Below, one piece after another: positions 55,900 to 58,692 of a stretch of DNA of 64,000 nt. How positions within the stretch are numbered: position 1 is the stretch's first letter; every line of letters begins with the position of its first letter. Origin of the DNA: Gammaproteobacteria bacterium (GTDB taxonomy: Bacteria; Pseudomonadota; Gammaproteobacteria; Eutrophobiales; Eutrophobiaceae); contig WLWS01000003.1 in the NCBI GenBank assembly GCA_012103475.1, forward strand, positions 186,001 through 250,000, written 5' to 3'. The notes below the pieces were generated by a model. The model saw nothing but the letters and a program-made list of their open reading frames with translations. It did not search any database and was not told the DNA's origin. The translations under genes were made by a program, and so were the position numbers.

Positions 55900-56646
55900 G
55901 TGAAAAAGTTTTCAAAAGCTTTGCTAATTATTCTGGTTCTGGCATTGATCGGACCGCTTCTGGTCGCTTGCAGCGGTAGTATAAAACTCGGACAGAATTG
56001 GCGCACCGCCGATCGTTCAAGCACCGGAATCGCACCTAAGCCAGATCTAAACGAAGAAGCTTTAGTCCAGATTTACGCCGCGAGAGCTTTTAACTGGCGA
56101 GGCATATTTGCGGTACACACCTGGATTGCGACCAAGGAAAAAAATGCCAGTAATTACCGTGTGCACCAGGTTGTTGGCTGGCGTGCATGGAATAGTCTGC
56201 CAGTGGTAGTTTCGGAGGAAGACTTGCCCGATCGTTCCTGGTACGGCTATACCCCGGAAATTCTTGTCGATCTACGAGGAGCAGACGCGGAAGTGGCGAT
56301 AAAGGCTATCTATCAAGCGGTTCAGGAATACAATTACCAATATCGTTACAGCGTATGGCCGGGCCCGAACAGCAATAGCTTTGTCGCTGAAATCGGTAGG
56401 CGCGTACCCAAACTAAGTTTAAAACTGCCCGCTACTGCAATAGGCAAGGACTTTCTGGTTAGTTCTGTATTGTTTGATAAAGCACCGAGCGCGACGGGTT
56501 ATCAGTTTTCTTTATATGGATTGCTCGGTATTACACTCGCACGCGAAGAGGGTCTGGAAGTGAATTTTCTGGGGCTGAATTTTGGTATTAACCCATTGAA
56601 GTTAATGATAAATTTACCCGGTTTGGGCCATTTGGGACTGATTTAA
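55900..56646 (+). CDS. DUF3750-family membrane or lipoprotein
   Basis: A 248-residue protein with a GTG start at 55900 and an N-terminal hydrophobic stretch ending in LLVACSGS, a possible lipobox (Cys24). DUF3750 marks: IYAARAFNWRGIFAVHTWIATK, SWYGYTPEILVDLRGADAE and WPGPNSNSFVAEIGRRVP. The conserved His, Asn and Ser in the last motif hint at a papain-like or NlpC-like hydrolase fold, but this is not proven. It is the last gene before a structured intergenic region. Confidence 0.8.
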   Translation: MKKFSKALLIILVLALIGPLLVACSGSIKLGQNWRTADRSSTGIAPKPDLNEEALVQIYAARAFNWRGIFAVHTWIATKEKNASNYRVHQVVGWRAWNSLPVVVSEEDLPDRSWYGYTPEILVDLRGADAEVAIKAIYQAVQEYNYQYRYSVWPGPNSNSFVAEIGRRVPKLSLKLPATAIGKDFLVSSVLFDKAPSATGYQFSLYGLLGITLAREEGLEVNFLGLNFGINPLKLMINLPGLGHLGLI

Positions 56647-56877
56647 AGTGAATCAACCCGGTAGTACTCAATGAGGGGGAGGAGGGTAGAGTACCAACCG
56701 GGTCGTTCAAAGCATCAATTGGGAGGAATGATTGCTTGGTAAGAATAATAGCCAAGTAGAGAATCATCTGCTGTGACAAAGCTCACAGTTTCTATTCAAG
56801 CGTCAAAATACTTTTAAAACTGTGAACGGAGTCACGTATCTGCTTAAGAGCTTCAGGGGAAGGGGCGCAACCGGTGA
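56647..56877. ncRNA. Structured intergenic region with GGA-loop hairpins (candidate small RNA)
   Basis: A 231-base gap between convergent genes with no believable ORF. Hairpin 1 (56657-56702): stem CCCGGT-A-GTACTC with GAGTAC-CA-ACCGGG, 12 pairs, 19-base purine loop with G5AGGAG3. Hairpin 2 (56711-56736): nine pairs with two single-base bulges, loop GGGAGG. Hairpin 3 (56735-56756, CTTGG/CCAAG). Hairpin 4 (56771-56788, CTGTGA/TCACAG), followed by a short T-rich stretch. A last small hairpin GTGA/TCAC shows ACGGAG in its loop (56822-56835). On the plus strand the GGA loops resemble CsrA-binding RNAs; on the minus strand the loops are CCUCC-rich. Transcription is not shown. Confidence 0.4.
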
Positions 56878-58692
56878 TTATAGTGCTCTGACTGGCTCTT
56901 CAGTATTTTGAATCAGGCTAACAATGGTCCAACCGGCTTCCGGTTGAGGCGGGTTTTCGATAACAAATGGATGTAGCCGAACTTTCTCGTCCAGTGCAAA
57001 AAGTGGAATACACTTGTCTTTGTTTCGTTCCAGATAGTTTTCAAAACTGAATTCTTCACTCAGCTGTGTACTGCGAATTTCTGCGGCATTTCGAATCCAG
57101 TTTGCCAGAAACCCATGGGTGATTTCTTCACCGAACAGAAGCTGGCCCCGGTGACGGTTTGATATTTTGTGTTTATCGGTAATCATCTGGTCGCGGGTAG
57201 TCGCCACTTCGAAAATATTGTTTTGGCCAAAGTCCGCCCTGAAGCGAAGACCGGCCAGTGCATCCATGTTGACGCGTCCGGACATCGCCAGCATGCGACC
57301 GACACCGACCAGATCCAGATGTCTGTCTGCGTGTTCGGAGATCGGATTACCATAATAGGTTTCCAGGCCTTCCATTCTGGCAGTGCGGGTGTTTTCCCAG
57401 TTGCTATCTGTCAGCACGACTTTAAAATCCAGATCCTGCAGAGCTTTACCGATTGCTCTGGCAACAATGCCCGCACCTATGATTAAGACTCCTTTTGGTG
57501 GTGGTTCACGAACTCCAAGCAAATGAGCCAGCTGTTTTGCCGACAGGCTTTGAATAAGTACGGTGCCAACGATGACTAAAAATGCCAGTGGTACGAACAG
57601 ACTGGCTTCGGCATATCCGGCTTCTTCAAGCCGAATTGCAAACAGGGCAGCAACGGCAGCGCAGACAATACCACGTGGTCCAATCCATGAAATCATCAGG
57701 CGTTCACGAATATTCAAATCGGAACCGATCGTTGAAGCGAACACCGCCAACGGTCGTGCCACAAACATAATCACAGCCAGAACGATGAGTGCAGGAAAAC
57801 CAATGTTCAGCAGCTGATTAATGTCAATTCGAGCTGCAAGCACGATGAACAGGCCTGAAATCAGTATTACGCTCAGACTTTCCTTGAAATCTAGAATATC
57901 ATCAATATCGAGTCCCTTCATATTGGCGAGAGTCATGCCCATAATGGTGACTGCAAGCAGTCCAGACTCATGTTCGATCATATCTGCAATAGCATAAACT
58001 GCGAAAACCAGGGTCAGGACCAGAACGTTACGCAGATATTCAGCGATCAGATGGCGTTTTAATACATAGCCGAGAGCGAGGGCTGAAAGTGCGCCAATTA
58101 CGCTGCCTATCAATACGATATTGCCGAATATAGCGAGGATGTTGCCGAGGGTATTTTCTCCTTGTGCGGAGATAATGAAATTAAATACCAGTACAGCCAG
58201 CAGGGCACCAAGTGGATCAATGACGATACCTTCCCAGCGCAGAATATTTGAGATATTCGCATTGGGTCGAACTGTTCGTAACATCGGTATGATTACTGTC
58301 GGACCGGTGACGACAACAACCGCACCAAAAAGAAAAGCCAGCGCCATGTCGAATTTAAGAACGTAGTGAGTGGCTATCGCTGTTATGGCCCAGGTAATTA
58401 GCGCACCGATACTAATTAAATTACGGACAACTCTGCCCAGCCCTCTTATTTCTTCTATTTTCAGTGTAAGACTGCCTTCGAAGAGAATGACCGCTACTGA
58501 AAGTGATATCAGAGGAAAAAGCAGATCACCAAAGAGTTGATCCGGATTGAGAATACCGCTTACCGGCCCGATAAGAACACCACAGATAAGCAGGAATAGA
58601 ATCGAAGGTAATCGGATTGCCCATGCCAGCCATTGACAGCTGATGCCGAGAACTGCGATGCCTGCGAGTGACACCATAATATCGGCTTGCAT
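56878..58692 (-). CDS. CPA1-type sodium/proton antiporter with NAD-binding (TrkA-N) domain
   Basis: A 604-residue protein: about 12-13 helices in residues 1-390 with the CPA core (FGAVVVVTGPTVIIPML, then EGIVIDPLGALLAV holding the ion-binding Asp), and a cytoplasmic Rossmann domain starting VLIIGAGIVARAIGKALQ. A C-terminal regulatory region follows. It should exchange sodium or potassium for protons at the inner membrane with nucleotide control. The first ATG at 58692 is used. It is followed on the minus strand by the structured region, which would be its 3' UTR. Confidence 0.9.
   Translation of the reverse strand: MQADIMVSLAGIAVLGISCQWLAWAIRLPSILFLLICGVLIGPVSGILNPDQLFGDLLFPLISLSVAVILFEGSLTLKIEEIRGLGRVVRNLISIGALITWAITAIATHYVLKFDMALAFLFGAVVVVTGPTVIIPMLRTVRPNANISNILRWEGIVIDPLGALLAVLVFNFIISAQGENTLGNILAIFGNIVLIGSVIGALSALALGYVLKRHLIAEYLRNVLVLTLVFAVYAIADMIEHESGLLAVTIMGMTLANMKGLDIDDILDFKESLSVILISGLFIVLAARIDINQLLNIGFPALIVLAVIMFVARPLAVFASTIGSDLNIRERLMISWIGPRGIVCAAVAALFAIRLEEAGYAEASLFVPLAFLVIVGTVLIQSLSAKQLAHLLGVREPPPKGVLIIGAGIVARAIGKALQDLDFKVVLTDSNWENTRTARMEGLETYYGNPISEHADRHLDLVGVGRMLAMSGRVNMDALAGLRFRADFGQNNIFEVATTRDQMITDKHKISNRHRGQLLFGEEITHGFLANWIRNAAEIRSTQLSEEFSFENYLERNKDKCIPLFALDEKVRLHPFVIENPPQPEAGWTIVSLIQNTEEPVRAL

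Follow-up and report, generated by a model that had tools for sequence, protein, structure and literature searches.

The window, by which we mean the whole stretch of 64,000 nucleotides that was analyzed, contains a hairpin-rich region of 231 nt between a DUF3750 lipoprotein gene and a CPA1-type antiporter gene with a TrkA-N domain, the latter being followed by fabB and then by fabA (coordinates are given in Table 1). An earlier note on this DNA had proposed a regulatory RNA on one of the two strands. Its two main hairpins (56656-56703 and about 56711-56736) are present as drawn, each with a purine loop on the plus strand. What was described beside them as 'two further small stems' and a 'third loop with ACGGAG' corresponds to the palindromes of two CRP boxes, not to RNA hairpins of the gene. 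The GGGGAAGGGG seen near 56857 is present as well, but lies outside the conserved unit.

Table 1. Genes, promoter elements and parts of the predicted small RNA around the hairpin region
Feature	Position in window	Strand	Remark
DUF3750 lipoprotein gene	55900-56646	+	neighbour on one side of the hairpin region
CPA1-type antiporter gene with TrkA-N domain	56878-58692	-	neighbour on the other side
CRP box 2, CGTGACTCCGTTCACA, one mismatch	56821-56836	-	49 bp upstream of box 1; formerly read as the ACGGAG loop
CRP box 1, TGTGAGCTTTGTCACA, perfect palindrome	56772-56787	-	centred 41.5 bp before the predicted start
-10 hexamer TATTAT	56745-56750	-	starts 29 bp downstream of the box 1 centre
Small-RNA gene (predicted), about 99 nt	56740-56642	-	covariance model match, family homologues, fold z
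Predicted 5' end of the small RNA	56738-56740	-	
5' hairpin	56711-56736	-	exposes CCTCCC at 56721-56726, first candidate seed
Terminator hairpin	56656-56703	-	stem covariation, loop conservation
Terminator loop TACCCTCCTCCCCCTCATT, 19 nt	56670-56688	-	second candidate seed
Terminator tail TGATTCACTTTAAA	56642-56655	-	T-poor in the window copy
Predicted 3' end of the small RNA	about 56642-56648	-	

Read on the plus strand, the 231 nt fold no better than shuffled sequences (z -0.73). On the minus strand the same region reaches a fold z of -4.83 and the small RNA (sRNA) unit of about 110 nt alone a z of -7.0, while the minus-strand values in ten relatives range from -2.5 to -8.4. In addition, the terminator stem covaries strongly. 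An alignment of 34 distinct sequences that was fitted to the structure shows two-sided changes in 13 of the 15 pairs, with 103 two-sided cells (28 in shuffles) and a covariation score of 0.540 (0.231 in shuffles); sliding the partner by one column lowers this score from 0.54 to 0.11-0.16. The result is the same for 15 members aligned with MAFFT without fitting to the structure (37 two-sided cells against 12.5). The poor structure returned by RNAalifold on the first alignment of seven sequences is due to misalignment of the stem there. Covariation had been asked for in both stems: it is found in the terminator stem, whereas the 5' stem is not kept in all members. In minus orientation the terminator stem contains 50 G-U against 17 A-C pairs, an asymmetry that favours the minus strand as the transcribed one.

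These results bear directly on the suggestion, made because of the GGA motifs in the plus-strand loops, that the region encodes a CsrB/RsmY/RsmZ-like RNA titrating CsrA/RsmA. Both this and the alternative that the DUF3750 lipoprotein gene has a GGA-rich 3' UTR here are extremely unlikely, given that the plus-strand fold is at chance level, that no consensus plus-strand promoter was found in the hairpin region and that DUF3750 adjoins the RNA in only a minority of relatives. The Rfam models of CsrB, RsmY and RsmZ yield no match at the gathering threshold in the window and none at E <= 10 locally. Moreover, the wobble asymmetry, the promoter (see below) and the T runs, which follow the stem on the minus strand only, put the gene on the strand opposite to the GGA loops. 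What stands is the more general proposal that one of the strands encodes a regulatory RNA, which is well supported.

In the predicted transcript, ACCAAGCAATCATTCCTCCCAATTGATGCTTTGAACGACCCGGTTGGTACTCTACCCTCCTCCCCCTCATTGAGTACTACCGGGTTGATTCACTTTAAA, a linker joins a 5' hairpin to a long terminator hairpin whose loop reads UACCCUCCUCCCCC. The window copy matches the covariance model (built from 15 members and containing no CRP box) at 56642-56751(-) with 84.5 bits. Among the first 15 aligned members the CCTCC of the 5' segment is invariant and the loop sequence CCTCCTCCCCC is the best-conserved stretch; the stem of the 5' hairpin is absent from some members, and it is the CCUCC that stays. A clean T run comes after the second stem in most relatives and gives an intrinsic terminator with a U tail, as is typical of Hfq-type trans-acting sRNAs, although the run is weaker in the window copy. 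The predicted 3' end (56642-56646) touches the stop codon of DUF3750, which is transcribed towards the sRNA gene, and a tail-to-tail overlap between both transcripts is therefore possible.

No promoter had been seen in the earlier note, but on the minus strand CRP box 1 (TGTGACAAAGCTCACA), the TATTAT hexamer and CRP box 2 (TGTGAACGGAGTCACG) lie upstream of the RNA. The distance of the hexamer from the centre of box 1 places this box at -41.5 with respect to a start at about 56738. A CRP box at -41.5 is the class II layout of CRP-activated promoters, and the window sequence contains both the box centred there and the -10 hexamer that belong to it. The arrangement is widely kept: all 34 distinct members have an upstream CRP box that deviates by no more than two mismatches (24 perfect and 9 with one mismatch, against 0 and 8, respectively, in 3,400 shuffles), the -10 lies exactly 29 bp from the box centre in 27 of them (TAGACT being the commonest hexamer) and about 27 have a second upstream box within the same mismatch limit. 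In L025 and L030 (genus g18) the box is situated 18 bp further from the -10, with its centre at about -59, which fits neither class well; possibly this promoter belongs to a different class or uses a different -10.

On the minus strand the loops become CCUCC-rich and anti-Shine-Dalgarno-like, and they lie downstream of the antiporter gene. This part of the earlier description is well supported, but the RNA is not merely a piece of 3' UTR since it has its own CRP-type promoter. In nearly all family copies the RNA is found directly downstream of either the antiporter gene or fabB, on the same strand, and its last hairpin could terminate read-through transcripts, as would suit a 3' UTR element or terminator that is processed from the mRNA of the antiporter gene (or of fabB) and has no independent promoter. 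We nevertheless regard such an origin as quite unlikely: in nearly all members the RNA is directly preceded by the CRP box and -10 at fixed spacing, and the upstream gene can be either of the two or neither (L037, L055-L058), the promoter being retained in these last cases too.

A first DNA search returned one congener at 81% and fragments in other genera. The gapped pattern CCTCC-N-CCCTCCTCCCCC was found in 14 of the 53 family genomes and in none of the controls, and the covariance model extends the family further, with matches of at least 50 bits in 28 of the 53 genomes and matches at E <= 0.1 in 31 family genomes covering 16 of the 18 genera (the order-level genome set is here the same single family). 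The relatives with named records, RBG_16_51_14 and SI037_bin171 among them, are Gammaproteobacteria assembled from metagenomes. In a class sample of 369 genomes there are few other carriers, namely G191, G047, G215, G184 and G296 (three other families) and G264 (a fourth), and each of the six shows CRP boxes and a similarly spaced -10 even though the model includes no CRP box; in other families this architecture is seen at L054-L058 and L111. The phylum sample contained no further convincing copy. Weak class and phylum matches (L059, L112, L173, L174) lack a CRP box in the right position and were left uncounted, and L008 was rejected as a member, having matched only via a CRP-like palindrome inside other sequence. 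Two genomes have two copies of the RNA (G073, and G010 in tandem). At L051, the antiporter gene is followed by two diverged tandem copies (1501-1606 and 1729-1834), both of which have a CRP-like box and a -10 reading TATAGT.

The genome studied here encodes a CRP orthologue (NF008732, 315 bits against a cut-off of 266) as well as Hfq (105 bits). Within the family, the RNA occurs in 28 of the 41 genomes with a CRP over the cut-off and in 2 of the 12 without (Fisher p 0.002, uncorrected for kinship), and these two are both incomplete drafts. The seven genomes of genus g15 (G016, G027, G033, G059-G062) have neither a CRP orthologue nor the RNA, which looks like a joint loss.

Very probably, then, the hairpin region contains a free-standing minus-strand gene for a CRP-activated, trans-acting sRNA of the anti-Shine-Dalgarno kind. 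We propose that cAMP-CRP bound at -41.5 (class II) would switch the sRNA on, helped by the second site about 50 bp upstream, and the sRNA is then expected to rise once the preferred carbon runs out. An RNA of roughly 100 nt would terminate at the intrinsic terminator hairpin and, probably together with Hfq, expose two C-rich seeds: the 5' CCUCCC and the loop ACCCUCCUCCCCC. These would pair in trans with G-rich Shine-Dalgarno regions of target mRNAs and thereby block translation. By analogy with CyaR, NfeR1 and sX13, we expect ribosome-binding sites on target mRNAs to be covered by the CCUCC seeds at high cAMP.

The opposite direction of control has precedents. CRP represses both Spot 42 and vcdRP, and at translation starts VcdR employs four consecutive C (PMC8672173). 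These are likewise CRP-controlled sRNAs (VcdRP also encodes a protein), and if CRP acted here as it does there, the RNA would be made on rich carbon. We consider this unlikely, as the -41.5 position is that of a class II activator and is held to the base pair in 27 of the 34 members.

A closer parallel is CyaR (RyeE) of enterobacteria, a CRP-activated and Hfq-dependent RNA whose seed pairs with the ompX Shine-Dalgarno (PMC11795201). Both are short and combine a CRP promoter (CRP dependence being deduced here from the sequence alone) with a conserved Shine-Dalgarno-pairing seed, a candidate one in our case, and a conserved terminator loop. They differ in that the present RNA has two CCUCC seeds, one of them in the terminator loop, and is found in other gammaproteobacterial lineages; the CyaR model has no match at E <= 10 in 56400-57100 and none at E <= 1 in nine relatives. 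In rhizobia, NfeR1 (alpha-r14) silences mRNAs at the translation start through CCUCCUCCC anti-Shine-Dalgarno motifs in hairpin loops (PMC10746234). The alpha-r14 RNAs have three such hairpins, are Hfq-independent and stand under LsrB/NtrC, whereas here we find one terminator loop with CCUCCUCCCCC plus one 5' CCUCCC, under putative CRP control. Against 56400-57100 the alpha-r14 model scores 12.6 bits (E 8.1), below its cut-off of 58.8. The C-rich loops of sX13 from Xanthomonas repress mRNAs with G-rich motifs near their translation starts (PMC3771888); sX13 has three stems with such loops and acts without Hfq, and the likeness lies in the C-rich loops, no sequence relation having been shown. 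No family of Rfam release 15 matches this RNA, and a literature search in which few subscription journals were covered retrieved no paper describing this RNA. We conclude that it represents an undescribed sRNA family that would work like the CRP-linked and anti-Shine-Dalgarno sRNAs and falls outside the CyaR and alpha-r14 models.

Results of target searches are less distinct. A genome scan with GGGGGAGGAGG gave 23 sites, fewer than the 27 of the reversed control; with no excess over this control, no target set is demonstrated. The pattern GGGAGG-N-ATG was found 69 times against 44, in a mixed list of genes with no clear theme. From these scans it might be argued that the element is only a CRP-regulated terminator or DNA element that does not act in trans, but this is very unlikely considering that the 5' CCUCC and the loop CCUCCUCCCCC, which are dispensable for CRP binding and termination, are the most conserved parts. 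The best single target candidate for the sRNA in this genome is crp itself: its start region GGGGGGAGGUAAGUAACAUG and the terminator loop pair at -23.3 kcal/mol, a value that none of the 52 window genes reaches with its best start region. This pairing is weak in several relatives, and crp is therefore not a consistent candidate among them. The gene (G000:C17 about 1063473, L108/L166) carries a G-rich Shine-Dalgarno of unusual length, ATGGGGGGAGGTAAGTAACATG, which pairs with this loop and is kept in only part of the relatives. It is a speculative suggestion, to which we assign a rather low probability, that CRP is itself subject to feedback from the RNA, or that the latter serves under carbon starvation as a general brake on genes whose Shine-Dalgarno sites are G-rich.

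A well-defined sRNA family missing from Rfam release 15 is of value because its hosts are uncultivated Gammaproteobacteria, in which post-transcriptional control is hardly known. It would tie CRP, and hence carbon status, to an anti-Shine-Dalgarno RNA beyond enterobacteria and vibrios, which suggests that such a circuit either arises repeatedly or predates the current view. With the covariance model, promoter coordinates and neighbours at hand, the RNA is directly testable, also in metatranscriptomes. Finally, in a genome outside the close relatives a hairpin RNA-like element (L174:1501-1603, minus strand) carries CCUCCUCCC twice and a T tail, without CRP boxes, and may be another anti-Shine-Dalgarno sRNA of the alpha-r14/CcsR style.
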